Shown: piece by piece, positions 23,730 through 64,000 of the stretch
Numbering within the stretch: position 1 is the stretch's first letter
How the letters are laid out: each line of letters opens with the position of its first letter
Source: Ochrobactrum sp. BTU1
GTDB taxonomy: Bacteria > Pseudomonadota > Alphaproteobacteria > Rhizobiales > Rhizobiaceae
Assembly: GCA_018798825.1 (NCBI GenBank)
Contig: CP076357.1
Span: 1-64,000 of the forward strand
Reading direction: 5' to 3'
DNA length: 64,000 nt
Notes under the pieces: model-generated
What the model was told of the DNA's origin: nothing
The model's database searches: none
Seen by the model: the letters and a program-made list of their open reading frames with translations, nothing else
Translations under genes and position numbers: made by a program

Positions 23730-23862
23730 GCAAAAGAAAAAGGCCCCCGATAACGTTGCCGTCATGGAAGCCTTCCTCAAGTTTGGTCGCTTAGAGAATC
23801 GCATTTCCATGAATCACTGTCAAGAGCATTAGGCGTCAATTTGGCGGGCAGATTTCTTTTGC
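23730..23862 (-). ncRNA. Probable antisense ctRNA (incA) region between repB and repC
   Basis: In repABC replicons this interval normally encodes a small antisense RNA that limits RepC synthesis. Two nested inverted repeats are visible: GCAAAAGAAA (23730-23739) with TTTCTTTTGC (23853-23862), and CATGGAA (23763-23769) with TTCCATG (23805-23811). The outer right arm lies just before the repC ribosome site, so pairing could hide it. I did not find a convincing terminator for the antisense RNA; its exact ends are unknown. Confidence 0.5.
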
Positions 23863-23882
23863 CTTATGAAAGGTGAAGGGAA

Positions 23883-25070
23883 ATGCACATTCAGGAGAAT
23901 GTAACGTCCACATTTCGTGGGCGAGGGATGTCGTTTGTCCAATTGAAAGGTTTAGCTGCAAGTAAATTGACAGGAACCTCAGTCAATAGATGGGCGATCT
24001 ATAAGCAGCTTTGCATCGCCAAATCGGTCTTTGGCCTCAATGATCGCTGCCTTGCGGTGCTCAGCGCACTGCTTTCGTTTTATCCCGAGAATGATATCGG
24101 CTCAAAGTCAGGATTGGTGGTGTTTCCCTCCAACCGGCAATTGGCATTGCGCGCGCATGGTATGCCTGAATCTACGCTCCGCAGACACGTGGCCTCTCTC
24201 ATTGAGGCGGGTTTGATCCTGCGCCGCGACAGTCCGAACGGCAAACGTTATGCCTATAAAACGCAAGCAGGTGAGATCGAAGAGGCTTTCGGCTTCTCAG
24301 TAGCTCCTTTGCTCGAACGCGCGTCCGAAATCGCAGCGGCGGCTGAACGCATTCAGGCGGACATTAAACTTCTCAAGAGAACGCGCGAACGTATTACACT
24401 CAAACGCAGGGACATAACGCAGTTGTTCGATACCCTCGATATCGAAAGCAAACGCGATCAATATCGCGAACTGCACGATAAATTTCGCACAATCGTCGAG
24501 GCAATTCCCCGTCGCGCATCAATCGAAGAACTTACAGCTATTCTGACGAGACTTTCCGCTTTGAGCGAAGAATTACTTAACTCTATGAATTTGTTGGATG
24601 ATGTCGAGGAAATGAGCGCCAATCATGCCCAAAATGAGCGGCACCATAATGAATCACATCCTGAATTCTATAGAGAAGATCAAAAAGAAAATTCTTTTGA
24701 TTTGAAAGATAACCGACCAGCGCCTTCGCATTCTCTAAAGCCCCGTATCGATGTCACGATTGATATGGTTTTACGAAGCTGCCCCGATATCAACTGCTAT
24801 TCATCAGTACCAATTCGGTCTTGGCGTGACCTTGAGGACGCAACTGCTGTCGTTGCTCGCTTCCTTGGAATAGCACCATCAGCCTATACGGACGCCATAA
24901 CCTGCCTCGGTCATGAATACACTGCAGCAGTCGTTGCCTGGATATTGCAGTGCAGTAGTAAAATCCGTTGCGCAGGCGCATATCTGCGCTCTTTGGTCGA
25001 GAAAGCCAGAACAGGGCAGTTCTCCATATCGCAATTACTGTTGGAGCAATCCACACATTCATCTGTTTAA
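23883..25070 (+). CDS. repC: RepC replication initiator
   Basis: The 395-residue initiator is the essential replication protein of repABC replicons. It has the N-terminal winged-helix region (NRWAIYKQLCIAKSVFGLNDRCLAVLSALLSFYP...SGLVVFPSNRQLALRAHGMPESTLRRHVASLIEAGLI) and the conserved C-terminal domain ending in AGAYLRSLVEKARTGQFS. An AT-rich patch lies inside the gene at about 24640-24720, where the origin is usually found. The ATG at 23883 follows a GGTGAAGGG ribosome site. Confidence 0.95.
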   Translation: MHIQENVTSTFRGRGMSFVQLKGLAASKLTGTSVNRWAIYKQLCIAKSVFGLNDRCLAVLSALLSFYPENDIGSKSGLVVFPSNRQLALRAHGMPESTLRRHVASLIEAGLILRRDSPNGKRYAYKTQAGEIEEAFGFSVAPLLERASEIAAAAERIQADIKLLKRTRERITLKRRDITQLFDTLDIESKRDQYRELHDKFRTIVEAIPRRASIEELTAILTRLSALSEELLNSMNLLDDVEEMSANHAQNERHHNESHPEFYREDQKENSFDLKDNRPAPSHSLKPRIDVTIDMVLRSCPDINCYSSVPIRSWRDLEDATAVVARFLGIAPSAYTDAITCLGHEYTAAVVAWILQCSSKIRCAGAYLRSLVEKARTGQFSISQLLLEQSTHSSV

Positions 25071-51814: not shown

Positions 51815-52076
51815 GCATCTGTGAGCCTACCATTCCCCATGATAAAGAAGCTTGACGCTTTTTTGCATCGATAGTTAATCCACCACAAGCAATGATGTCT
51901 TCGCTAAGCGTGAGCACCATGTAAAAGCCTTCCACATCAGATTTTCCGAGCAGAAAGTCGCAAAACTCTTCGCGTTCTCCTGCTGCAAAGAAGGTCGGCA
52001 CATTGCTATCGAATATTGCCAGGCAGCCGTTAAAATCGCTGACAGTATAAGGTCGGGCAATCAAGTTCGTCATCAT
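51807..52076 (-). pseudogene. Acetyltransferase of the outer IS, N-terminal fragment
   Basis: The fragment encodes MTNLIARPYTVSDF up to GSQMHRK and then runs into the inner element's right end, where a few foreign codons follow before a stop. The missing C-terminal part is at 48622-48830. Start overlaps the outer tnpC stop as in the intact copy. Confidence 0.88.
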
Positions 52077-53602
52077 GAGTAATTCCACGGCAGTAATTCA
52101 TCAATTCGGCTCTGCTTATGGCCATTGACGATTGCAGTGAGCGTAGTGGTAAGCCATTTCTGCGGATCGACTGAATTGAGTTTGCACGTCTCAATCAGTG
52201 ACGCGATTGTAGCCCAATTATGAGCGCCTGCTTCATGACCTGCGAATAATGCATTTTTTCTGCTCAATGCAATTGGCCGGATTGTTCTTTCGACGCTGTT
52301 GTTATCCAGCTCGACGCGGCCGTCAGACAGGAACAGACACAAGCCATCCCAATATTTGGCGATGTATTTCAACGCTTCCCCCAACGGAGCTTTTGCCGAC
52401 ACGCGTGCGCGGTGATGCGCAAGCCATGTTTGCATATCGATGATCAGCGGCTTTGATTGTGTCTGACGAACCGCGCGCCGCGCTTCTGGATTGAGACCAC
52501 GCAATTCAGCCTCAATCTTATAGAGTTCGCCGATTCGCTTTACACCCTCTTCAGCAATCGGGGACGAGCCTGTGCGCGTGATCTCAATAAGCTTGCGACG
52601 CGCATGAGCCCAGCAATAAGCCAATTCTATATTCGGACCAACACGATCTGGCGCGACCAACCGATTGTAGCCCGCATAGCCATCCACTTGCAGGATGCCG
52701 TTGAAGCCCTGCAATATCTGTTCGGCATATTGACCAGATCGTCCCGGAGCATAAGTGAAGGCGACACCGGGCGGTGCATTGCCACTCCATGGTCGGTCAT
52801 CCCGCGCCAAAGCCCAAAAATATCCTGTTTTGGTCTTTCCTGATCCGGGTTCAAGAACCGGTGCACGCGTCTCATCCATGAAGAGTTTGTTCGATCGCTT
52901 CAGATCAGCAATGAGCGCATCAAAGACAGGGCGCAGCTCAAAGGCTGCCCGTCCCACCCAGTCAGCCAGTGTCGAGCGATCTATGTCGATGCCTTGACGG
53001 CCCATAATCTGGGCCTGGCGATAAAGAGGAAGATGGTCGGCATATTTGGAAACCAGCACATGCGCGACTGTTGCTTCTGTCGGCAAGCCTGACGGGATCA
53101 GTCGCGCTGGAACGGGTGCTTGCACAACACCATCCGTACAGGCGCGGCATGCATATTTTGGACGATGCGTGACAATGACACGAAACTGCGCAGGGATCAC
53201 ATCCAGTCGTTCAGAAACATCTTCGCCAATGCAATGCAGACAACCACCGCAGGCGCAAATCAGACTATCCGGCTCGATGACTTCGTCAATGCGCGGCAGG
53301 TGCTTTGGCAAAGAACCGCGATTGATGGCACGTGGCCTTGATGCAGGCTTGGTGGAAGCGGTATCCGCTTCATCTTCTGCATGGATCGCCGCAATGGCAG
53401 TTTCCAGATCTTCCAGGGCAAGATCAAACTGCTCAGGATTAATCTTCTCTGACTTGCGTCCAAAAGCGGCCTGTTTGAAGGCTGCAACCAGCTTCTCCAG
53501 CCGCGCAATCCGATCATCCTTACGAAGGCCGAGCGCTGTTGCTGCAATCAGAAGCGCCTTCAACTCAGCAATATCATTGGGAAGATCAGTGGCATCCAGC
53601 AT
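52073..53602 (-). CDS. tnpC: IS66 TnpC transposase (outer copy)
   Basis: Identical in protein sequence to the inner TnpC at 49366-50895, displaced by exactly 2707 bases. It has the same coiled coil, zinc-finger-like segment and DDE motifs. The outer element keeps both ends and all three transposition genes, so it may still be mobile as a composite. Confidence 0.95.
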   Translation of the reverse strand: MLDATDLPNDIAELKALLIAATALGLRKDDRIARLEKLVAAFKQAAFGRKSEKINPEQFDLALEDLETAIAAIHAEDEADTASTKPASRPRAINRGSLPKHLPRIDEVIEPDSLICACGGCLHCIGEDVSERLDVIPAQFRVIVTHRPKYACRACTDGVVQAPVPARLIPSGLPTEATVAHVLVSKYADHLPLYRQAQIMGRQGIDIDRSTLADWVGRAAFELRPVFDALIADLKRSNKLFMDETRAPVLEPGSGKTKTGYFWALARDDRPWSGNAPPGVAFTYAPGRSGQYAEQILQGFNGILQVDGYAGYNRLVAPDRVGPNIELAYCWAHARRKLIEITRTGSSPIAEEGVKRIGELYKIEAELRGLNPEARRAVRQTQSKPLIIDMQTWLAHHRARVSAKAPLGEALKYIAKYWDGLCLFLSDGRVELDNNSVERTIRPIALSRKNALFAGHEAGAHNWATIASLIETCKLNSVDPQKWLTTTLTAIVNGHKQSRIDELLPWNYS

Positions 53603-53692
53603 AGGCCGAACTTACCAAATCCGGTCTTGATATGCTTGATGATTATGCTGTCAGAGTCATCGTGCCGCAGCTATGAGACAGGTGCTCAATAG

Positions 53693-54046
53693 CTATTCAA
53701 CCGTAATCGGCGCTCTCACTTCCACTGCGCGCACGCGTCGCCAGTCAAGCCCTGCGAACAAAGCTTCAAACTGTGCGTGGTTCAACGACATCAGCCCATC
53801 TCGGATCTCTGGCCAGCTGAACGTATGAGCTTCCAAACGCTTATAGGCCAGAACCATACCTGTGCCATCCCAGTAGATCAGTTTTAGCCGATCGGCCTTG
53901 CGCGAGCGAAAGACAAATACAGTTCCCGTAAATGGATCCTTGCGCAGTTCGTTCTTCACCAACGCAGCAAGCCCGTCATGGCCTTTACGGAAATCGACAG
54001 GTTTTGTCGCCACGATGATCCGCACCCGATTGGCAGGGAAGATCAT
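53693..54046 (-). CDS. tnpB: IS66 TnpB (outer copy)
   Basis: A 117-residue IS66 Orf2-family protein identical to the inner copy, overlapping tnpA by four bases. Confidence 0.93.
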   Translation of the reverse strand: MIFPANRVRIIVATKPVDFRKGHDGLAALVKNELRKDPFTGTVFVFRSRKADRLKLIYWDGTGMVLAYKRLEAHTFSWPEIRDGLMSLNHAQFEALFAGLDWRRVRAVEVRAPITVE

Positions 54047-54429
54047 ATGAGAGCCGCAAGCGCGCTTGCAACAGCTGCAATCCGGGAAGCCGACGCACCT
54101 TCTTCCAGCCGAATGATCACGGCTCCGCTGAATATCTCAACGCGCGAAGCTGGTGTTGCCACCGGTTCAATTGCAGGCTCAGCTACTATGATTGCTGCAA
54201 ATTCCGTATCATCTTGGGGCGGAGGCAGCACAAGCTTGCCCTGACGTGCCAGCGTGCGCCATGAAGACAAGTAATTGGCACGCACGCCATGGCGATCGGC
54301 AACTTCCTGCACCGTCACGCCAGGGCGCAAGCTTTCCGAAACAATCCGGGCTTTTAAATCAGCTGGCCACTGACGATGGCTGTCACGCTCACTCTGATCC
54401 GTTGAGAGAAACTCCATTCGAGGCTCCAT
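54043..54429 (-). CDS. tnpA: IS66 TnpA (outer copy)
   Basis: A 128-residue helix-turn-helix protein identical to the inner copy. The start at 54429 corresponds to 51722 in the inner element. About 80 bases separate it from the right terminal repeat, so its promoter lies at that end. Confidence 0.9.
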   Translation of the reverse strand: MEPRMEFLSTDQSERDSHRQWPADLKARIVSESLRPGVTVQEVADRHGVRANYLSSWRTLARQGKLVLPPPQDDTEFAAIIVAEPAIEPVATPASRVEIFSGAVIIRLEEGASASRIAAVASALAALI

Positions 54430-54493
54430 GGAGAAACTCCGTTCTGTCCATTCGCTAACTCTCAATGACAGAACACAAAATCAAAGAGAACGT

Positions 54494-54513
54494 GGGGTCA
54501 GAACACCGGTTAC
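54494..54513 (-). repeat. Right terminal inverted repeat of the outer IS66 element
   Basis: Read inwards on the minus strand this end is GTAACCGGTGTTCTGACCCC, the partner of the left end at 48554. The inner copy's right end is identical and ends at 51806. Confidence 0.85.
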
Positions 54514-54521
54514 GATCGATC
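54514..54521. repeat. Right target-site duplication of the outer IS66 element
   Basis: GATCGATC directly after the element's right end, matching 48546-48553. It lies within the rtcB codons for Pro-Ile-Asp. Confidence 0.9.
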
Positions 54522-55777
54522 GGTCCCACCACACGCAAATCGTTGCTGGTATGCGCCCTCGACCGCGCTTCCTGCCGTGACAGTCTGCGTCCCGCTCCAT
54601 GTGCAGCCGATTCCAAAAAGCCGACTGCCCCGCATCCGGCGAGAAGCCATGTGCCGTCCCCCATTGATCCTGGAAGAATGACCGGCTCACCGAACCACTC
54701 ATACGGGCTGGCATCCATCGAACCGACACCTTTGGCTGGGCAAGCGCCCTTTCGGTGGCGCACGATTTCCCCACTTGCCCAGACGGTGTTGTGGGGAGCA
54801 TCATAAACAAGATGATGGCCTATTTCGTGTCCCAATGTGCGCGCTACGGCTTCTACGGCTGCCAGTTCGATAAAGAAACGGTTGGCAAACGCGGCGTTCA
54901 CAGCATTTGCGTGGCCATTCAAGTACCGTCGATAGAGTTGCGATTGCGTCTCTCGCGAGATGATCCGCCAGTCATCACCAACGTTCGAACCGAGCTTTGC
55001 TCTTTCCTTTGTGGCCGTACCTATTCGCTGTCCAAAGTCGAGAGAACCTGAATGAATGACAAGAACGACCGACCCAGCCTTTAGTCCGGCGACCCGGGCA
55101 AATGCGCCGTCGACAATATGATCGACGTAGCCCAGTTCAACAAAATGGTTTCCACCTCCGATGGTGCCGAGAATGGCATCGCGGCGGTGATCGCCATCAA
55201 TTTTAGCGTAGTCGGCGAAATCGGGATCGATATCTTCACATGAGAAGACGCCGTTGTCCGAATGGCGTTCGAGATCCGACCATGTTCGCCAAATATCGAG
55301 CTTCGAAAGAAGTCCCGTGCTTGACTTGCGAAGACAGTCTAGGAGGCCCGGCAGTCCATCGCGTAAAATTGCGTGCCGATCCATTCCAGTCAAAGCGATG
55401 TCTCTCCCGCCCTGGAAGAAGACATGTCGAAGGTGATGTTCGAGATCTGGTGTTGATAATTGATCCGCTGTGACGCCTTCAAGGACAATCATGCGCATCC
55501 CGCAGCCTATGTCGGAGCCGATCATATGCGGCAGTACAGCGCCTTCAATGTCCGCGATTACGCCGACTGGGACCGGCTTTCCAGGATGGAAGTCGGGAGT
55601 TGTTACGACAGCATGAAGCGAGGAATTCTTTCGAGCGAAGTCTTCCTGCGAGGGCAAAGCACTCGCAAGATCCGCAAGTGATCGCGCAAAGCTGCGTTCC
55701 GGTTCGTCGTGAGCTACGACCGACCGAATTTCATGACCAGCAAGGTTGCTGGTGCGACAGATGGGTATTGTGTTCAT
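54514..55777 (-). pseudogene. rtcB: rtcB copy 1, 5' part (RNA 3'-phosphate ligase), interrupted
   Basis: This encodes the first 421 residues of an RtcB RNA ligase, which joins 2',3'-cyclic phosphate or 3'-phosphate ends to 5'-OH ends using GTP and Mn. Core motifs are present: TPDFHPGK, GSDIGCGM with the metal cysteine, GTIGGGNHF, VIHSGSLDFG, HRKGACPA, GSMGDGTWLLAGCG and AAHGAGRRLSR with the guanylylated histidine. The frame runs into the IS66 end after VVGPID and stops after 19 foreign residues. The lost C-terminus is at 48370-48553. A truncated protein with the catalytic motifs could still be made, but the interrupted C-terminal part includes conserved core. The ATG at 55777 faces rtcB2 divergently. 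Confidence 0.92.
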
Positions 55778-56195: not shown

Positions 56196-57413
56196 ATGGG
56201 CATTCAAACTGGGAGCTACGGCTCCTTCAACGCCGGGGGACATTCTCCGGCAACTATTCGTCGTTTTTATTCCGAGCAAAGTTGGATTGAAGGTGAAGCC
56301 CTTCGACAGCTTGAAGAAATGTCACGTCTTGATGGAGCAAAGGCACTTGCTGCTTTTCCCGACTTGCATCCGGGAAAATACGGCGCAACAGGCGTTGCAC
56401 TTCTTTCTCATCGCCTTCATCCGCTATTGATCGGCAACGATATCGGTTGCGGGATGGCTTTATTCGAACTCGATTTGCCAGTGCGTAAGCTAAGCATCGA
56501 TAAGGCTGAACAGCGACTAAGAGAACTGGAGCACCAAAAAGTTAGCGATCCCGTGGAGGCGCTATCGGCTCACGGCCTTCCGCACGAACTCTTCGCGGAA
56601 ACCTTGGGAACCATTGGGGGCGGCAATCACTTTTGCGAATTGCTGGCTGTCGATCAGGTTTTCAGGTCATCATCGGAACAATTGATCGATGATCAATGTC
56701 TGTATCTTCTCGTTCATTCGGGTTCTCGCGGCGTTGGAGCTGCGGTGCTTACAGAGTTCCTTGCCACTAACGAAAAATCAAACGTTGGATTTGAGATAGA
56801 CGATCCTTTTGCTACGCGATGGATGGCGATGCATGATCAATGTGTCGCCTGGGCAGCACTGAACCGCCACTTGATTGCGGAACGCGCTGCACGAGCACTA
56901 CGGGCGGATTTTAGCCTCGTAGCAGACGTGCCGCATAATCTGGTGCGCGTTCGGTCCGAGGGGATTGTACACCACAAAGGTGCGGCAGTAGTTGAGAGCG
57001 GTGATCTCGTTCCTATTGCGGGATCGAGAGCAAGCCTCAGTTACATCGTGCGGGCTCGGAAAGAAGTGCATCAGTCTCTCGGCGCAGTTTCTCACGGAGC
57101 GGGGCGTAAATATGATCGGGCAAGCATGCACGGTCGTGTCGGCACTTCACGTTCACATCGAGAGCAATTAGCGCGCAACGATTGGGGTGGACGGGCAATC
57201 TGCGATGACCGCTCGCTCCTCATTGAAGAAGCCGCCTCCGCCTATAAGGACTGCGGCCAGGTTGTGACGGATCTGGAGGCGCATCAGCTGGTAGAACGTG
57301 TTGCAGCTATGCGTCCGCTTGTTACTTACAAGAAAGCTGTAGATCGACCGGGATATTCTCGCGAAAAATCTGACAAACGGAACAAGAGGGAGATGCGCAA
57401 TGAAAAGCGTTGA
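56196..57413 (+). CDS. rtcB2: RtcB2 RNA ligase paired with PrfH
   Basis: The 405-residue RtcB-family ligase has FPDLHPGKYGATG, GNDIGCGM, GTIGGGNHF, VHSGSRGVG, HHKGAA, PIAGSRASLSYIV and SHGAGRKYDR, so all catalytic motifs are present. It is shorter than the archaeal enzymes and belongs with the form coupled to PrfH, which has been shown to religate 16S rRNA cut in the decoding centre after PrfH frees the ribosome. The 3' end overlaps prfH by 14 bases. The C-terminus is very basic (REKSDKRNKREMRNEKR). Confidence 0.9.
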   Translation: MGIQTGSYGSFNAGGHSPATIRRFYSEQSWIEGEALRQLEEMSRLDGAKALAAFPDLHPGKYGATGVALLSHRLHPLLIGNDIGCGMALFELDLPVRKLSIDKAEQRLRELEHQKVSDPVEALSAHGLPHELFAETLGTIGGGNHFCELLAVDQVFRSSSEQLIDDQCLYLLVHSGSRGVGAAVLTEFLATNEKSNVGFEIDDPFATRWMAMHDQCVAWAALNRHLIAERAARALRADFSLVADVPHNLVRVRSEGIVHHKGAAVVESGDLVPIAGSRASLSYIVRARKEVHQSLGAVSHGAGRKYDRASMHGRVGTSRSHREQLARNDWGGRAICDDRSLLIEEAASAYKDCGQVVTDLEAHQLVERVAAMRPLVTYKKAVDRPGYSREKSDKRNKREMRNEKR

Positions 57414-58011
57414 TCTACTTATATCTTCGGGAAGCGGGCCTGCGGAATGCCGTATTGCAGTCGGACGCTTCATCGACATCCTTTCTAAAGAGGCACAAGA
57501 TCGCGCTTGCCTGTTCGACGTTACAGCAGAAATTGCGTCCGATAAGCATGGCCCTAAATCCGCTTTGGTGACTCTCGAGGGAGAAGTGGCTGACCAGATT
57601 GCGCAAGAATTTTGCGGAACAATAAGGTTGGTGTTCAAAAGCCCTGTTCGAGCGCAGCATAAGCGTCAGAACTGGTTCATATCAGTGAGCCGGATCGCGC
57701 GGCCAGGAATTGATGAGATCGTCATTGGGCCAAATGACGTTCGTTTTGAAACTTTGCGAGCTGGCGGGCCAGGGGGTCAGCACCAGAACACTACCGACAG
57801 TGCCGTACGTGTTGTCCATATTCCAACGGGTATCCAGTTAATCGCCCGCAATGAGCGATCTCAGCATCGAAACAAGGCAACGGCGCTAGAACGTCTTGGA
57901 ATGGTCCTGAAGCATCTCCAGGAGGACAAAATCGAAGAGGCCAAGGCCGCACGCCATCTTGAAAACCGCAACATCGAACGCGGAAATGAGGTGAAGATCT
58001 ACCGTTTCTGA
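57400..58011 (+). CDS. prfH: Peptide release factor homologue PrfH
   Basis: The 203-residue protein has the GGQ motif (GGPGGQHQNTTDSAVRVVH, GGQ at residues 125-127) and the basic tail of class I release factors, but lacks a codon-reading domain of normal type. PrfH releases peptides from ribosomes whose 16S rRNA has been cleaved in the decoding centre, allowing RtcB2 to repair the break. Overlap with rtcB2 shows co-translation. Confidence 0.92.
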   Translation: MKSVDLLISSGSGPAECRIAVGRFIDILSKEAQDRACLFDVTAEIASDKHGPKSALVTLEGEVADQIAQEFCGTIRLVFKSPVRAQHKRQNWFISVSRIARPGIDEIVIGPNDVRFETLRAGGPGGQHQNTTDSAVRVVHIPTGIQLIARNERSQHRNKATALERLGMVLKHLQEDKIEEAKAARHLENRNIERGNEVKIYRF

Positions 58012-58273: not shown

Positions 58274-59167
58274 CTAGACACGATGCCGTTCGAGAAGTGC
58301 CCGAATATCGTTGGCAAGATTGACAGCTTCGGGAACGAGGACAGTAGCTCCCTCAATTGTGCCGTAATGAGCCTCGAGGCATTGCAGTAGAAGTCGCTTA
58401 AGTGCCGTTTCATCCGGTGTCTGGGGCAGTTTTGACGCGAAGTATGTCGCTTCGAGCTGCCGCTCTTTGGTCTGGAACCACTCCTGAAGCTCGGTGAGTG
58501 CCCAGTCGCCACGACGAATTGACTTCAGTTGCTCCCGGTTGCGCTCAAGATCGAGGTCTTGTTCAATGAGAATTTGCTCGACTTCGTTGAGCAGTCGAAC
58601 CACATGGTAGGCAAACTTAAGATCGTACCCATGTTCTTCAATGGATCGAGCTCGGTGTAAATTGGAGGAGTTCGACTTTTTGGCGATCTTGGACATCTGC
58701 GCGTAGGCATAGCCTTTGAACTTCTGCCAGGCGCCTTTGTGAAGAAACGCTTTTCGGCTCTCACGCACAAGTTCACTGACCTGCGTCGAATGTGTGACGC
58801 ATCGTCGTGGCGTGAATAATGCATCGATCATGTTCGGATTGTTTTCCATACAGAGTTGGAAAAACTTCACAATTGAGAATACCGTAAAGTCGTAAGTACG
58901 ATCTTTTCCGTCACAATCGGGAACATGGTGTTGCTGCCATTGTTCAAATCGCTGGAGTTGTTGTCCAAAGCCGGGAATCTCACCTGCGAGATGGGGAAAA
59001 ACGTCTTCCTTGGGTGGAATGCAGAAGCCAACAAAATCAATATCCGATCCGCCAGACGAGACCCCATAAGCCTCGCTTCCTATAATGGTCAGGTATTGTA
59101 GATTGGAGGGAAGCCAACGCGGCGGCTGAATCGAGCCCTTTTCGTATAGTTTATCAATCAGCGTCAT
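58274..59167 (-). CDS. Pol-beta superfamily nucleotidyltransferase (YcgL/COG3541-like)
   Basis: The 297-residue protein has the nucleotidyltransferase signature GSEAYGVSSGGSDID (residues 30-44) with the metal-binding SDID, followed by FVGFCIPPKEDVF and the YDFTVFSIVKFFQL segment containing a third candidate carboxylate. Members of this family add nucleotides to RNA ends or small molecules; the substrate here is unknown. I chose the ATG at 59167 with CAGGGA upstream; a TTG 13 codons earlier is possible. It follows the CCA-adding enzyme gene by 80 bases, in the Ro60-RtcB3 gene array, suggesting RNA end processing. Confidence 0.8.
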   Translation of the reverse strand: MTLIDKLYEKGSIQPPRWLPSNLQYLTIIGSEAYGVSSGGSDIDFVGFCIPPKEDVFPHLAGEIPGFGQQLQRFEQWQQHHVPDCDGKDRTYDFTVFSIVKFFQLCMENNPNMIDALFTPRRCVTHSTQVSELVRESRKAFLHKGAWQKFKGYAYAQMSKIAKKSNSSNLHRARSIEEHGYDLKFAYHVVRLLNEVEQILIEQDLDLERNREQLKSIRRGDWALTELQEWFQTKERQLEATYFASKLPQTPDETALKRLLLQCLEAHYGTIEGATVLVPEAVNLANDIRALLERHRV

Positions 59168-59247
59168 GTGGTGGAATCCCTGCAAACTTGAAATCTTGGC
59201 ATTCAAATCGTGTTAGATGCCCGGCTATTTATTGGAAATTTGATAGA

Positions 59248-60519
59248 CTATCGGGCTATGATTGTTGTTTGTGCATTGCAATCGACTATCGCCGTTTTCA
59301 TGGCGCGTCTGGCAGCCGCTATTTGAATGTGACGCAGGCAATTTCGGACGGCGGGGACCGACATTTCCTTTATTTGATCAGGTGAATATCGATCACTGAT
59401 ACGCGCAAGGGCAACCTCCCCGATGATATGAGAAAAGCGCCAGCAAGCGAGATATGGTCCTCGGGGTGCCCCCGTAATCCGGCCGAAATGGTCAGCGGTG
59501 GCGACTGATGCGATGATTTGTGCATGTTTTCTGGCCTGTTGTGGTCCACCAAATGCCTCCACCAGATCAACAAATTTTTTGGCACTCATTTCGCTCGTGC
59601 GGTGAACATGGGTGTGAAAGCGGGCCGACAGAATACCAATCCTGCGTAGCTCGTTGGATAGCTTCAGCCTGTCCGCCAGCGCATTGACGGGACCAATGCC
59701 GAGTTCTTCATGTCCGAGATGCGATGGCAGTTTTTCGTCCGCCGTTAAAGCCTTGCCTAAATCGTGCACGAGCGCACCAAACGTGATCAAAGGATCCTCG
59801 AAACGGCAGGCAGCAGTATCGACCACCATCATTGTGTGAGCGAAAGCGTCCCCTTCCATGTGATGCTCGACAGGCTGAATTCTTCCCTTAAGGGCGGCCA
59901 ACTCGGGAAAAAATGTGGCGAGAGCACCAAAGCGGTCCAACTCCAGGAAGAATGTCGATGGTCTTTGGGTGGCAAGGGCTTTGTTGAACTCGAGGGCAAC
60001 CCGCTCCGGGGTAAGATGATCGAGTCTACCTGTCGCATGGATTTTTCGGCAGAGAGCGACAGTTTCCGGAGCAACAGAAAAGCCGAGTTTGGCCGCCAGT
60101 CTGGCGGCTCTCAGGACACGGACAGGATCGTTGCCAAAGGACTCGGATGTATGGCGCAAACGTTTGGATGCGATGTCATTCAAGCCGCCAAATGGATCGA
60201 TGATGCTGCCATCAGAATCCATGGCAATCGCATTGCAGGTAAAGTCTCGATTGAACAGATCATCGGCGATTGTAATCGAGGTATCAAACGATGCCGTAAG
60301 CTCCTGATTGTCCTGCACAGACTTACGCATGGTACGAGCCAGAGCGTATTCTTCATTTGTCTCAGGGTGAAGAAAGACGGGAAAGTCGGCGCCTACACTT
60401 TTGAAACCAGCAGCAAGCATGTCGTCCGGTGTTGCACCAACGACAACATAATCGCGGTCAGCCGGCTCGCGGGACATGAGCAGGTCGCGGACAGCGCCGC
60501 CTACGAGAAAAGTCTTCAT
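59248..60519 (-). CDS. cca: CCA-adding tRNA nucleotidyltransferase with HD domain (E. coli type)
   Basis: The 423-residue class II CCA enzyme begins MKTFLVGGAVRDLLM and has the catalytic DRDYVVVG (D-x-D) motif, the NRDFTCNAIAMD stretch and the RVLRAARLAAKLG helix. A C-terminal HD phosphohydrolase domain (HHMEGDAFAHTMMV, HDLGKAL) follows, as in E. coli. In that enzyme the HD domain removes 2',3'-cyclic phosphates. It would rebuild tRNA 3' ends after damage. I chose the ATG at 60519, just after AGGAAAG; an ATG ten codons upstream is weaker. As it sits among rtcB, Ro60 and nucleotidyltransferase genes it looks like a repair enzyme, not the housekeeping one (inference). Confidence 0.88.
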   Translation of the reverse strand: MKTFLVGGAVRDLLMSREPADRDYVVVGATPDDMLAAGFKSVGADFPVFLHPETNEEYALARTMRKSVQDNQELTASFDTSITIADDLFNRDFTCNAIAMDSDGSIIDPFGGLNDIASKRLRHTSESFGNDPVRVLRAARLAAKLGFSVAPETVALCRKIHATGRLDHLTPERVALEFNKALATQRPSTFFLELDRFGALATFFPELAALKGRIQPVEHHMEGDAFAHTMMVVDTAACRFEDPLITFGALVHDLGKALTADEKLPSHLGHEELGIGPVNALADRLKLSNELRRIGILSARFHTHVHRTSEMSAKKFVDLVEAFGGPQQARKHAQIIASVATADHFGRITGAPRGPYLACWRFSHIIGEVALARISDRYSPDQIKEMSVPAVRNCLRHIQIAAARRAMKTAIVDCNAQTTIIAR

Positions 60520-60753
60520 TTGCTTTCCTGCTGGGTGAAAGTCGGACATTTGGAAAGCTCCAGATCGAGGCAGATTGAAACCCTCGAGTTCTCTTCATTA
60601 AAGGGGATTGAAAATCTCTGCCCCATTTCCATTCACAAACTGCAGCGGCTTTAACCGAGTGCTACACAAACGCATATCATATAAAGGCTGCGTCATTTAT
60701 CTAATCTAACAAATGTTTCAGCCGTCGTATTTTAAGCGATACATCGATGGTGT

Positions 60754-60782: not shown

Positions 60783-62216
60783 CTATTCAGGCTTCTGTGA
60801 ACGCTTCTTTTTGTTACGCCACGGGGCATTCTTCTGCCAGTCGCCTGCCATGATCGAACCATAAGGTATGACCTCATCGACGATTTCGGCCAGTCCGTAT
60901 TCACCGATCTGCGCCTTGACCTGTGCGGCGTTCTTGTAAGCACCGGGCAATTCCGAAACATCAGCGTTACCACTGAAGAAACGAACATCAAGCCCGCTCG
61001 TTTCCTTTGCCAGGATATCGGCAATGTTGTTGGGGCTCAGTCCGCGTGAATCTGCTCCATATGCTGCTGCCAGCTGCCGCAGATGTGCGGTTCTGGAGAA
61101 GTTACGCCCGGCGCCGTGCGGCGAGAAGCCAAGACCGTGCGCAGCGTTCGAGCCCCGTACAATTAAGATCGGTTCCGCCATGTTGAGCGGAATGATCGTG
61201 AGGTCTGTTGCATCGTCCGCCCATCCGTCGAAGGCCGGTGTTGCGCCTTTGCCGTGATAGAAAAGGCCATCGGATTTCTGGAAAACAAAATTATGCTCGT
61301 TCCAGAAACGGTCAGCAACTTTCGCTCCTAGTTTCGCCACAGCCATGTCGTGAAGGGCGAAATGGTTCTCCTTTGTCCACTGACGGACAATCTGCAGCGC
61401 CTTCCAGTAATGTTCTCCTTCTTCGCTTTCGGCAGGAATCCATGCATTCTGCTTTAAGGTTTCGGGCGAGAGAATCTCGCGGAAGCGATTGGCGATCTTC
61501 ATACCGCGATCGTAAAGCCGTGCGCCGGGCGCCCGCGACCCATGATGGGTCACGAGAGCGGTTTCGCCGGTTGACTTCATTTGTCCGACGTAAGCAAAAT
61601 GATTACCGTCACCTTGTGTTGCAAAATGGTCGATAGCCACACTCACAATCTGATTCAGATAAGGGTTCGTATCGAAAGCGGACATAGTTGCATCGGATGG
61701 TTTAAGCTGAGCGCCGCGAGGACGTCCGCCCGGCCCGAAGTGCGTCACGGCATGAACGGCGTCGAGGAGTTCGTTCGGGGCGACCCCTGGCAGAATGGAG
61801 ATCGCCATCGAACAGCAAATATCGGCCGAGTGCATACCGGGGTGGATTGCTTCGGAGGCGACGACACCGCCGACTGGAATGGTTCCGATCGGTCCTGATG
61901 GACAGGCATCTGGCATGATCGCCGCCGCTCGGACACCCGGCGTGCGTGAGAGTTCACGCATGGTTGCGCGGACATTCTCGACGTTTGCCTGTTCTGCAGC
62001 ATTTTCAGCCCGGATATTCATGTGAATGTCGATATCACTTGCTCCCTTCAGCGGTAGTTTCGGAGCAGGTTGATACGCCATCGCCGCTGCAAGTGCTACC
62101 TCGCGCGAGCCGCCGTCACGCAGGACGTCATTTGCGGCATCGAGTGCCTCACGAAACCATCTACCCTGCAGTAAACCTGCATTGATCAGATCCTGGCCGC
62201 TGAGTGTCTTAATCAT
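60783..62216 (-). CDS. rtcB3: RtcB3 RNA ligase, Ro60-associated
   Basis: The 477-residue RtcB-family protein is a third, divergent paralogue. The motifs are MPDACPSGPIGTIPVGG, HPGMHSADICCSM, TQGDGNHFAYVG, THHGSRAPG, YHGKGATPAF, RGSNAAHGLG and PHGAGRNFSRT. The metal and guanylylation residues appear to be kept, but spacing differs from rtcB2. I chose the ATG at 62216 with AGGAAAG upstream; an upstream start ten codons earlier is weaker. It lies directly after the Y RNA-like genes and Ro60 on the same strand, the arrangement known from bacterial rsr-yrl-rtcB operons. It ends in a basic, lysine-rich tail. Confidence 0.9.
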   Translation of the reverse strand: MIKTLSGQDLINAGLLQGRWFREALDAANDVLRDGGSREVALAAAMAYQPAPKLPLKGASDIDIHMNIRAENAAEQANVENVRATMRELSRTPGVRAAAIMPDACPSGPIGTIPVGGVVASEAIHPGMHSADICCSMAISILPGVAPNELLDAVHAVTHFGPGGRPRGAQLKPSDATMSAFDTNPYLNQIVSVAIDHFATQGDGNHFAYVGQMKSTGETALVTHHGSRAPGARLYDRGMKIANRFREILSPETLKQNAWIPAESEEGEHYWKALQIVRQWTKENHFALHDMAVAKLGAKVADRFWNEHNFVFQKSDGLFYHGKGATPAFDGWADDATDLTIIPLNMAEPILIVRGSNAAHGLGFSPHGAGRNFSRTAHLRQLAAAYGADSRGLSPNNIADILAKETSGLDVRFFSGNADVSELPGAYKNAAQVKAQIGEYGLAEIVDEVIPYGSIMAGDWQKNAPWRNKKKRSQKPE

Positions 62217-62295
62217 TTTCTTTCCTGCTTTTGCAGTCCTTCTCAATTGTCACCGTTTCTAAGATTGATCCATCACCGAGGTGAGGGGCATGCCT

Positions 62296-62314
62296 TGCAT
62301 TTTGCGAAAATGCA
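62296..62314 (-). other. Stem-loop downstream of the third Y RNA
   Basis: TGCATTTT-CGC-AAAATGCA forms an eight-pair stem six bases after the last Y-like RNA on the minus strand. It could mark the 3' boundary of the RNA cluster or a processing site before rtcB3. Confidence 0.4.
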
Positions 62315-62319
62315 TTTGT

Positions 62320-62464
62320 GAAGACGGACAGCGGCGACAAGGATGGGCGAAACCAGGATGGCCCCGCTCGTGCCAGAGAGCGTGTTGCAAAGGAGGAGTC
62401 GAACCTGCCAGACCACCCAAAGATGTGCTGTAGTTCCACCCGGCATTCGCAACTGCCCGTCTTC
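62320..62464 (-). ncRNA. Y RNA-like RNA 3 (Yrl, tRNA mimic)
   Basis: The RNA of about 145 bases is closed by an 18-position stem: GAAGACGGGCAGTTGCGA (from 62464) pairs with TCGCCGCTGTCCGTCTTC (to 62320) at 16 positions. The 5' strand continues into CGAATGCC and then GGAACTACA, shared with RNAs 1 and 2. A T-arm GCAGG-TTCGACT-CCTCC with one mismatch lies at 62392-62408, a capped acceptor-like hairpin CGCTC-TCTGGCAC-GAGCG at 62365-62382, and a D-arm-like GGTTT loop follows. Order is T-arm, acceptor, D-arm, i.e. a permuted tRNA domain. Confidence 0.72.
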
Positions 62465-62465
62465 G

Positions 62466-62571
62466 ATCTGGCGACAAATTTTTGAGAAACCTCCTCTCTT
62501 GCGAGAGTGCAGAATTTGAATCTGCTCGCCTTGCGGCTTTACCAATGTAGTTCCTCAGGCATTCGCCAGAT
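62466..62571 (-). ncRNA. Y RNA-like RNA 2 (Yrl, tRNA mimic)
   Basis: The RNA of about 106 bases is closed by a perfect nine-pair stem ATCTGGCGA (from 62571) with TCGCCAGAT (to 62466). The 5' strand carries CGAATGCC and GGAACTACA. A perfect T-arm GCAGA-TTCAAAT-TCTGC is at 62509-62525. Next is a short acceptor hairpin CTCTC-GCAA-GAGAG (62494-62507) capped by a GNRA tetraloop, then a D-arm-like GAG-GAGGTTT-CTC, then the 3' strand beginning TTGTCG. Same permuted layout as RNA 1. Confidence 0.78.
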
Positions 62572-62582
62572 ATTTCAATTGT

Positions 62583-62716
62583 CTGCAACGACAAGTATTG
62601 GTGAAACGCCTGCTCTACCGCTGAGCTACGGGTCCATACAGAAGAAGAACCCGGCAGGATTCGAACCTGCGACCTGGAGAGTAACGATCTGTAGTTTCGA
62701 CCGGCATTCGTTGCAG
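62583..62716 (-). ncRNA. Y RNA-like RNA 1 (Yrl, tRNA mimic)
   Basis: The RNA of about 134 bases is closed by a perfect nine-pair stem CTGCAACGA (from 62716) with TCGTTGCAG (to 62583). After CGAATGCC and GAAACTACA comes a perfect T-arm GCAGG-TTCGAAT-CCTGC (62654-62670). The acceptor 3' strand CGGGTTC (62647-62653) then loops over 11 bases back to the 5' strand GGACCCG (62629-62635), followed by a perfect D-arm GCTC-AGCGGTA-GAGC (62612-62626). This is a circularly permuted tRNA fold with the anticodon arm replaced by the Ro-binding stem, as described for bacterial YrlA RNAs. Confidence 0.82.
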
Positions 62717-62719
62717 TTG

Positions 62720-62743
62720 CTCGCGCCGACCAATCGGCGCGAG
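62720..62743 (-). other. Stem-loop between Ro60 gene and Y RNA 1
   Basis: CTCGCGCCGA-TTGG-TCGGCGCGAG is a perfect ten-pair stem starting eight bases after the Ro60 stop codon and ending three bases before Y RNA 1. It may protect the mRNA 3' end or guide cleavage that frees the Y RNAs. Confidence 0.55.
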
Positions 62744-62751
62744 TATTCTCT

Positions 62752-64000
62752 TTATTGAAGCTCGATAGCTTCGATCTTTTGCAGCCAGGTCCCAGGACGG
62801 CTTTCGCCATTGGCAAAAGCTGCAATTACTTCGAAGACGGCATCAGAAAAGCCGCCTATATTGAGTACGTCGTTTCGACTTTCCGCCTGTGTCGTCTGGT
62901 ATGGCTGGATATCGAGACATACAAGCTTTGCAGCCGGATTGAGCCTTTTTATCCGTGCCCATTCCTGCATCTTTGTTGACGGGCTGCCATAATACGACTG
63001 CTCTACCCAGGACTGGTTGTCCGAGATGAACACCACCAGATCCACCCTTGCATGCTCATTGGCAAGCTTTGCCAGAGGTGCGGAGCAATTGGTGCCGCCA
63101 CCGCCGATCTTTGCGAGTTTCTCGGCATTGGTCATGACCGAGTCACGTCGGTTCAGACGAACGTCGACAACGTCATATTCGAACGGCATCACCCGGGCAT
63201 TCGGATTTCGCTGCAGGAACGCAGCACTCATCAGGCCAGCCACGTCGATGCAACGAACGACCGAGGTCGCACCCTTGCGATAGCCGGTGACGCTGGAGCC
63301 CATCGAACCAGAAACGTCCGGGCAAAGGACCACTCGGCCGTCAAGCACCGGCACATTGCCAAGAGCTGCGTCCATTGCCTGTTGAAGCGCATCGCGAACC
63401 TCTTCCGGTACCGCTTCCGACGCCGCTTTCCAAGTTGTCATCAGCTGATACGGAAAAACTCTGGCTTTGCGCACGGCTTCCGGGTCCGAAAGACGGCGGG
63501 CAATCTCCTTTGTCATTCCTTCGACTTCAAACACACCTTTGCGCGCAAACGTATTCAAATTCTGGCGAACCGCCTGCCAGCTTCCGTTGCGTGCGATCTC
63601 AACCCAATGCTCGCGTGTCAGTGGCAGCGAAGTCAGCAGCTGAAACGGAACGTCCGGCACTGGTTTCGATAGATCGCGCCGAAACTCTTGGAGAGCCTTC
63701 ACTTCTACCGGCAGCGCTGCGTAGTCGTATGGCTTGCCGATCATCCAGGCATAAAGCGCTTTGCGTTCTTCGTTTGCCGGTTTCGGATGGACCATTTTGA
63801 CGACGTCTGCCAGAGACGGATCACTACCGACCATGGCGTTGAGAAGCTGACGCGTGCTCGCCATCTCAAGCCATGCCTGCACCATCTTCTTTGGCCGCGT
63901 TCCAAGCGACTTGCGTCCCATTACGCCTGAGCGCATGACCTGTACGAAACCGCGCAGCATCTTGCCGCTCTTCACTGTTTGCGGGAATGCAGCAGCAAAT
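62752..64000 (-). CDS. rsr: Ro60/Rsr (TROVE and vWA domain) protein, 5' end outside window
   Basis: The visible 416 codons encode the C-terminal part of the TROVE ring (FVQVMRSGVMGRKSLGTRPK, then helical repeats such as PFQLLTSLPLTREHWVEIARN) and a complete von Willebrand A domain with the MIDAS motif DVSGSMGSS and the later GGGGTNCSAPL. Ro60 binds Y RNAs and the ends of misfolded or damaged RNAs. The frame is open to the window edge (FAAAFPQTVKSGKMLR), so the start lies beyond 64000. The three Y-like RNAs and rtcB3 follow on the same strand, forming an rsr-yrl-rtcB array. Confidence 0.93.
   Translation of the reverse strand, partial: FAAAFPQTVKSGKMLRGFVQVMRSGVMGRKSLGTRPKKMVQAWLEMASTRQLLNAMVGSDPSLADVVKMVHPKPANEERKALYAWMIGKPYDYAALPVEVKALQEFRRDLSKPVPDVPFQLLTSLPLTREHWVEIARNGSWQAVRQNLNTFARKGVFEVEGMTKEIARRLSDPEAVRKARVFPYQLMTTWKAASEAVPEEVRDALQQAMDAALGNVPVLDGRVVLCPDVSGSMGSSVTGYRKGATSVVRCIDVAGLMSAAFLQRNPNARVMPFEYDVVDVRLNRRDSVMTNAEKLAKIGGGGTNCSAPLAKLANEHARVDLVVFISDNQSWVEQSYYGSPSTKMQEWARIKRLNPAAKLVCLDIQPYQTTQAESRNDVLNIGGFSDAVFEVIAAFANGESRPGTWLQKIEAIELQ

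Follow-up and report, generated by a model that had tools for sequence, protein, structure and literature searches.

Between the gene of a Ro60-type protein and an rtcB gene in Ochrobactrum sp. BTU1 lies a short stretch that a sequence-only reading had taken for three tandem Y RNAs, each a permuted mimic of tRNA. What these RNAs are, how much of a tRNA each of them imitates, and whether several copies could give one Ro60 protein different partners are the questions raised by this locus. The one scaffold for which it is known how a bacterial Y RNA sets the function of Ro60 is the Deinococcus Y RNA with PNPase. The window analyzed here, 64,000 nucleotides in all, comprises the initial 64 kb of a contig of 840 kb carrying plasmid ctRNA_p42d and S-element Rfam matches at 23730-23885, which mark a repABC-type replication region. 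On the minus strand of the window, rsr (Ro60, 519 aa) is followed in turn by three structured RNAs, rtcB and the genes of a CCA-adding-type enzyme and RlaP, and an RtcR-like gene is divergent from rsr. The three elements, hereafter copies A, B and C in the direction of transcription, were recovered between rsr and rtcB with closing stems ending at the positions given in Table 1, which match the outer coordinates claimed for the array, 62320..62716.

Table 1. Predicted features of the Y RNA array and its flanking genes in the window.
Feature	Coordinates	Strand	Basis or remarks
rsr, Ro60/TROVE protein gene	62752..64000	-	519 aa; start codon lies outside, at contig base 64311
GC-rich hairpin, rsr stop to copy A	62718..62745	-	without a U-run on the operon strand; terminator-like on + only
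Candidate Y RNA copy A, full permuted tRNA mimic (T-arm, acceptor, D-arm)	62583..62716	-	Rfam YrlA, fold, covariation
Copy A T-arm, GCAGG-TTCGAAT-CCTGC	62654..62670	-	fold, feature scan
Copy A capped acceptor hairpin, CGGGTTC-11 nt-GGACCCG, 7 pairs	62629..62653	-	fold, covariation
Copy A D-arm, GCTC-AGCGGTA-GAGC	62612..62626	-	fold, feature scan
Candidate Y RNA copy B, T-arm and short acceptor-like hairpin, without D-arm	62466..62571	-	Rfam YrlA, fold, stem covariation
Copy B T-arm, GCAGA-TTCAAAT-TCTGC	62509..62525	-	fold, feature scan; perfect
Copy B hairpin, CTCTC-GCAA-GAGAG, 5 bp, acceptor position	62494..62507	-	fold, feature scan
Candidate Y RNA copy C, class C: long closing stem, T-arm, D-like hairpin, without separate acceptor	62320..62464	-	fold, covariation
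Copy C T-arm, GCAGG-TTCGACT-CCTCC, 4 of 5 pairs	62392..62408	-	feature scan
Copy C D-like hairpin, GCTC-TCTGGCAC-GAGC, extra C-G closing pair	62366..62381	-	nearly invariant
rtcB-family RNA ligase gene, next in operon	60783..62246	-	PF01139 94.9 bits, cut-off 27; likely ATG 62216

The setting of the array was assessed from its genes. In profile searches, the part of the rsr product inside the window scored 73.1 bits against vWA_Ro60, above the cut-off, and 22.5 bits against TROVE, just below the cut-off of 23; the product reached 88.2 bits against RNA-bind_Rsr, below the equivalog cut-off of 900, and aligned with the Rsr of PDB 2nvo over query residues 18-502 (E 1.4e-26). It has the make-up of a Ro60 ring protein with a vWA domain. 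The histidine of its H-x-K-P motif, aligned to that of Ro60 itself, was invariant in 17 of 17 cases and is presumably involved in Y RNA binding. The closest named Rsr relative is that of Brucella cytisi (91 percent). A sigma54-type box, TGGCACGCTTCTTGGA, is located 36 nt upstream of rsr; when a loosened pattern with at most one mismatch was applied to the best 80 of 569 loci, 73 of them had such a box 36-111 nt upstream of rsr, versus 10 of 1600 shuffled stretches. An RtcR-type match was divergent from rsr at 79 of 83 loci, and in many relatives the array was followed by an RtcB-type match. The name rtcR was given to the gene at L003:14521-16167 on account of its likeness (75 percent) to a gene annotated as rtcR in NZ_CP072868. 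Judged by sequence, that is by its divergent rtcR, predicted sigma54 promoter and rtcB, the operon is of the RtcR-controlled RNA-repair type.

The identity of the RNAs was then judged by models, folding and covariation. The Rfam model of YrlA (RF02553) matched copy A over its full length (64.7 bits, E 1.7e-14) and also copy B (45.2 bits, E 7.3e-9), with E values that refer to a 601-base search and scores below the cut-off of 69 bits, and copy C had no Rfam match at E ≤ 1. The covariance-model check proposed for a Y RNA identity thus spoke for copies A and B but not for copy C. A model of copy C orthologues, for its part, also detected copy A (43.6 bits) and copy B (40.8 bits), which argues that copy C belongs to the same set. 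The sequence CGAATGC...AACTAC was present without mismatch in the three copies, the core common to the array RNAs being CGAAUGC...AACUAC / UUGUCG, and all three are encoded beside rsr and share a basal stem of the Ro-binding type together with this core, as do bacterial Y RNAs in the broad sense. The basal stem is given as the Rsr-binding part of Y RNA in PMC8394870 and PMC4726728. ARAGORN called no tRNA in the window. Kinship with tmRNA was considered and rejected: RF00023 produced weak matches in the first elements of 3 relatives (17.7-26.1 bits, cut-off 47) and none at E ≤ 1 in positions 62200-62800 of the window.

Folding was more stable than that of any of 200 shuffles for copy B (z -4.26) and for copy C (z -4.08). 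For copy A, 12 of 200 shuffles were equally stable (z -1.70); its energy alone is unexceptional and the z-score gives no support by itself. For covariation, orthologues of each copy were drawn from 32 loci and thinned at 93 percent likeness. The alignments comprised 13 of 14 references for copy A, from which L034 was left out for a long insertion, 21 of 26 for copy B and 12 of 13 for copy C, divergent or short rows being left out. Both-sided changes were observed at 10 of 36 predicted pairs of copy A, three of them in its acceptor, and, taking the window's own folds as the structures, at 9 of 22 named pairs of copy B and 12 of 46 of copy C; for the latter two, 0 of 500 shuffles scored as high, and sliding the partner strand reduced the number of such pairs. 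The T-arm columns of copy B were poorly aligned, being paired in only 59.6% of cells, so that its covariation support comes from its two stem helices, and the D-like hairpin of copy C adds none because it is invariant in the 12-sequence set. As had been noted, the closing stems differ in sequence and yet each is complementary, and the both-sided changes among relatives bear out the conserved structure deduced from this. Combined, the position beside rsr, the shared core, the covarying stems and the YrlA matches of A and B make it very probable that the array RNAs are bacterial Y RNAs.

The claim that each copy contains a T-arm, a capped acceptor and a D-arm held for one of the three. Copy A was as described, with a perfect 5-bp T-arm, a 4-bp D-arm carrying GG and a 7-bp acceptor closed by an 11-nt loop, in the permuted order inside the closing stem that is typical of YrlA. 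Copy B, by contrast, has no D-arm and does not reach the 69 bits of YrlA; the slot that it occupies is variable among relatives, some of which have full mimics there. In copy C, which lacks a separate acceptor, a hairpin GCUC-UCUGGCAC-GAGC follows the T-arm by 9-10 nt, both lying within a further helix; its loop also carries GG, and with 1 mismatch allowed it was the sole match in the 5.88 Mb genome. Reading this hairpin as the capped acceptor was rejected in view of the GG in the loop, the D-arm type GCUC/GAGC stem and the distance to the T-arm. A 5-6 bp pairing that passed the acceptor filter in 15 of 47 class C elements was likewise discarded, since all 15 borrow bases from the D-like hairpin or from the strand that directly follows. 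An anticodon arm was seen in none of the three folds. As modelled, copy A is the only complete permuted tRNA mimic, and B and C are partial ones.

To place these copies among their relatives, a scan for the core motif and the stem was run on rsr loci of species genomes, of which 569 had been confirmed and the best 80 were used. In these 80, 339 elements were found, distributed as none in 3 loci, one in 2, two in 3, three in 16, four in 20, five in 19, six in 12, seven in 4 and eight in 1; these counts are lower bounds, as the scan goes no further than the first long ORF. Of the best 80 of 569 loci, 75 thus have between two and eight elements downstream of rsr, and arrays of putative Y RNAs are the rule at rsr loci, tandem copies being nothing unusual. 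Several elements are not required, since L090 (Ralstonia) has a single one. The contigs of L076 and L077 end just after rsr. The motif scan missed class C elements in L022, L038 and L096 that were found by the covariance model, and the model also detected elements upstream of rsr in L088 (four) and L094 (two). Those of L088, from Cardiobacterium hominis (L088:5175-5788), are spaced at 153-163 nt, which suggests recent duplication. The median gap between neighbouring elements was 14 nt, and 213 of 278 gaps did not exceed 30 nt.

A full mimic outside class C (T-arm, acceptor and D-arm) was present in 70 of the 77 loci with elements among the best 80 of 569; the number was lowered from 71 because the acceptors of class C are spurious. 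Features were also scored in a wider pool of 87 entries, made up of the 80 loci, the window, three genus relatives (one of which repeats L015) and three plasmid records. Its 362 elements comprised 119 with T-arm, acceptor and D-arm, 93 with T-arm and acceptor, 42 with T-arm and D-arm, 13 with a T-arm alone, 19 with a D-arm alone and 76 with none. Among 1810 mononucleotide shuffles the corresponding numbers were 0 for all three features, 3 for T-arm and acceptor, 5 for the T-arm alone and 236 for the D-arm alone, with any T-arm in 8. A T-arm call is therefore specific, unlike a D-only call: the D-arm detector by itself is loose, and D counts carry little weight where the T-arm is missing. The 315 elements outside class C comprised 106 with all three features, 92 with T-arm and acceptor, 12 with T-arm and D-arm, 13 with T-arm, 16 with D-arm only and 76 with none, and the 47 class C elements gave 30 with T-arm and D-arm, 13 with all three (the acceptor being spurious), 3 with D-arm only and 1 with T-arm and acceptor, which makes the T-plus-D make-up mainly a class C trait.

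Class C was delineated with R1, a covariance model built from 22 class C sequences and run over 82 sources; the window's copy C, one of the 22, scored 133 bits. Class C proper scored 116.7-147.7 bits; it was found in 42 of the best 80 of 569 loci, which hold 43 such elements, and also in the window and L096. Matches outside the class in these sources did not exceed 53 bits, except for a divergent relative in L078 (80.9). The hairpin GCUC-UCUGGCAC-GAGC was exact in 38 of 43 class C elements, other forms (2, 2 and 1) being each one letter off, and the T-loop TTCGACT was present in 42 of 43 model-found elements, a uniformity that arises partly by selection, given that class C was first chosen by its hairpin and that R1, built from such sequences, matches them by construction. 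Independent signs of the predicted class are the wide score gap and the constancy of hairpin and T-loop as read from model coordinates. Of 47 class C elements, 30 were third in their array, 9 second, 6 fourth and 2 fifth; the class usually occurs once per array, with two elements in L072. Class C elements of L095, L060, L030 and L062 were unmatched by Rfam YrlA at E ≤ 0.01, and in R. etli (L095) that search detected 2 of 5 motif-scan elements; Y RNA repertoires would thus be undercounted in model-based annotation, since Rfam YrlA misses whole classes. In R. etli, L095:7463-7716 holds two more Y RNA types missed by Rfam YrlA at E ≤ 0.01, one with T-arm and acceptor and one short and without a T-arm.

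Loci with class C encode Rsr proteins about 61-91 percent identical to that of the window. In a midpoint-rooted tree of 81 Rsr proteins, class C was confined to one supported clade of 50 (100/96). Seven members of the clade were without it: L076, where the contig ends; L078, whose divergent form scored 80.9 bits; and a supported group of five that consists of Bosea, Phreatobacter and kin (99/94), in which the absence is read as one putative loss. Taking the class C labels literally, 4 changes were needed on the tree (3 forced), versus a mean of 27.1 for shuffled labels, and a single change sufficed in 0 of 200 bootstrap trees. The L078 relative has the loop UCAGGCUU, with the GG and the paired stem kept and the flanking letters changed. 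This pattern agrees with a loop that would contact the T-loop as a D-loop does, and argues against both a sigma54 box and a fixed antisense target. Complementarity of 7-9 nt between the class C loop and the 530 region of 16S, using letters that we assumed for that region, was also rejected: no 16S was found in the genome, and the L078 loop would break the pairing. In the same tree, the Rsr of L059, from a record titled Mycobacterium sp. KBS0706, grouped tightly with that of Inquilinus (100/100), and either the label is wrong or the contig is foreign, probably.

These observations bear on the possibility that B and C are decaying duplicates of A without a role of their own, only the full tRNA mimic being functional. 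The missing D-arm of copy B and its variable slot would agree with decay, as would the 74 of 339 elements (best 80 of 569 loci) with none of the three scored features and the loss of class C in the group of five. Yet class C is the most constrained of the elements: in contrast to its hairpin and T-loop, the D-loop of first elements, compared over 40 loci with motif-scan class C, showed 9 forms in 39, the commonest in 24. Class C also spans the whole range of Rsr identity given above with stems that covary, and copy B retains a 5-bp T-arm, rare among the shuffles, together with covarying stems. Decay of B and C is on this evidence unlikely.

The elements are linked to rsr. At E ≤ 0.01, all 297 R1 matches (92 + 205) in the 82 sources were beside rsr on its strand. 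Among 149 genomes of the order, searched with stricter filters by which weak matches may be lost, R1 matches occurred in 12 and Rsr (E ≤ 1e-30) in 13; all 12 have Rsr, and the 136 other genomes had no R1 match. The 25 R1 matches listed in this order-wide search were all within 1.6 kb downstream of rsr and on the same strand. Class C proper (>100 bits) was found in this sample in the window's own genome and in G061 only; G067 (81.5 bits) and G071 (60.3) had lower scores and no 16-mer within 4 changes. Within the genus, a close Rsr was present in 4 of 35 genomes, own included, which indicates that the operon is sporadic there. In the genus relative G001 (G001:C3:602273-603794), rsr matched in four pieces followed by three Y RNA elements, as a result of sequencing error or decay.

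Compared with known systems, the array shares with YrlA (RF02553) the basal stem CGAAUGC...AACUAC / UUGUCG, the permuted T-arm, capped acceptor and D-arm, and the place beside rsr, copy A being typical in anatomy; it departs from YrlA in its sub-threshold scores or, for C, lack of a match, and in the reduced anatomy of B and C. The locus also resembles the rsr-yrlBA-rtcBA operon of Salmonella, where, according to PMC7790460 and PMC9879122, a divergent rtcR, a sigma54 promoter, rsr, Y RNAs and rtcB occur in the same order, but with two Y RNAs as opposed to three here. Unlike in Salmonella, rtcB is followed here by a CCA-adding-type enzyme and RlaP on the same strand; RtcA was not found among seven proteins scanned in the window. 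With the RYPER complex of Deinococcus (Rsr - Y RNA - PNPase) it has in common a Ro60-family ring protein with a Y RNA scaffold (PMC8394870, PMC8058203 and PMC4726728), PNPase being the known partner there; by contrast, several predicted Y RNA classes occur in one operon here. The literature, in its available portions, describes one or two Y RNAs per operon, and neither larger arrays nor the class C hairpin was found there. The new part is class C, rather than tandem copies as such. Several Y RNAs per species are very probably known already, since Chen et al. 2014 reportedly located probable Y RNAs close to Ro60 in more than 250 species, each of which had 1 or more tRNA-like Y RNAs.

The reading that we favour, and consider somewhat probable, is that three Rsr-bound Y RNAs derive from one RNA-repair operon transcript, their modules serving as alternative docking sites. 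RtcR and sigma54 would switch the operon on, as suggested by the conserved -24/-12 type box and the divergent rtcR; in Salmonella, induction occurs through damaged tRNA. A single transcript would run from rsr through three nearly abutting structured RNAs to rtcB. Excision of the Y RNAs from it is probable because no promoter was found inside the array (no sigma70-like site in 62200-62800), and one transcript cut into pieces would be the simplest reading of this and of the short gaps. Each RNA would bind Rsr through the same conserved basal stem and core, and would present outwards a different module: acceptor, T-arm and D-arm in A, T-arm and short hairpin in B, and in C the T-arm with the D-like hairpin, a tRNA elbow without acceptor. 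Such modules may link Rsr to different enzymes that recognise tRNA or degrade RNA, or may each affect the gating of the Rsr ring in another way; we give this docking mechanism an even chance. The suggestion of the sequence-only reading that several copies may give Ro60 different partners is plausible, as it fits the predicted split into full and partial mimics. What counts against the favoured reading is the variable slot of copy B, with a possible relaxation of constraint on that copy, along with the sub-threshold or missing Rfam matches and the ordinary folding energy of copy A.

The tRNA-like modules could instead serve as decoys, protecting tRNA from a nuclease induced by damage or from a tRNA enzyme. 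Hughes et al. 2020 (PMC7790460) suggested that YrlA acts as a competitive inhibitor, and the faithful T-loop, D-loop and acceptor of copy A in an RtcR-type operon would be in line with it; the same source has YrlA itself uncut by the nuclease, which is compatible with a decoy or another reading. Against decoys stand the anticodon arm, seen in no copy, and class C, which has no acceptor and is nevertheless the most conserved. We regard decoys as quite unlikely. It is improbable, too, that the elements act in cis for the processing or stability of the rsr-rtcB messenger and not as trans-acting RNAs. The short spacing without a sigma70-like promoter would be expected of cis elements, and a hairpin between the rsr stop and the first element, with differing sequences, was present in 13 of 14 loci examined (a count without shuffle control); but a Ro-binding-type core is repeated in every element, a cis role needs no tRNA-like arms, the matches of L088 and L094 are upstream of rsr, and such RNAs are bound by the Rsr of Deinococcus, Salmonella and M. 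smegmatis (PMC4726728). The class C hairpin contains CTGGCACG and has TGGCACG in common with the -24 box upstream of rsr. Its reading as a sigma54 promoter within the array, or as a site that acts in DNA and not as RNA, was rejected as very improbable, since the -12 part is mismatched (GGGCC or GGGAC versus TTGGA or TTGAA), the upstream half of the hairpin, the T-loop and the paired stems are conserved too, and in the divergent L078 form the box is gone while the hairpin, with its loop GG, is still there.

Beyond the docking of three Y RNAs on Rsr, we tentatively propose, with the balance tilted somewhat against it, that class C is a distinct, clade-specific Y RNA family, an elbow whose nearly invariant hairpin and T-loop would be read by one dedicated partner, protein or RNA, so that one Ro60 would be retargeted by the RNA toolkit of a single operon and arrays would be combinatorial scaffold sets. 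Arrays of full and partial mimics, with one class kept nearly letter for letter across rhizobial families, constitute a natural experiment in which the same protein and the same stem are combined with different modules.

The genes around the operon were also inspected. Downstream of rtcB, and in the same orientation, lie RlaP (PF10127) and a gene of the CCA-adding/poly(A) polymerase type (window 58274-60549, -). They were rejected as conserved partners of the array, with no match in the flanks of 83 other rsr loci; this search excluded the short loci of the genus relatives G001, G019 and G027, L015 being the same place as G027 with longer flanks. Further on, an RtcB-family gene is followed by prfH (TIGR03072 198.2 bits, above the cut-off) at window 56196-58011 (+), an RtcB-PrfH type pair near the rsr operon, and a further RtcB-family ORF lies at window 54455-55777 (-; PF01139 224.5 bits), which brings the RtcB-family genes to 3 within 8 kb. 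Beside this cluster, 3 ORFs at window 52073-54465 (-) resemble what we take to be an IS66-type insertion element.
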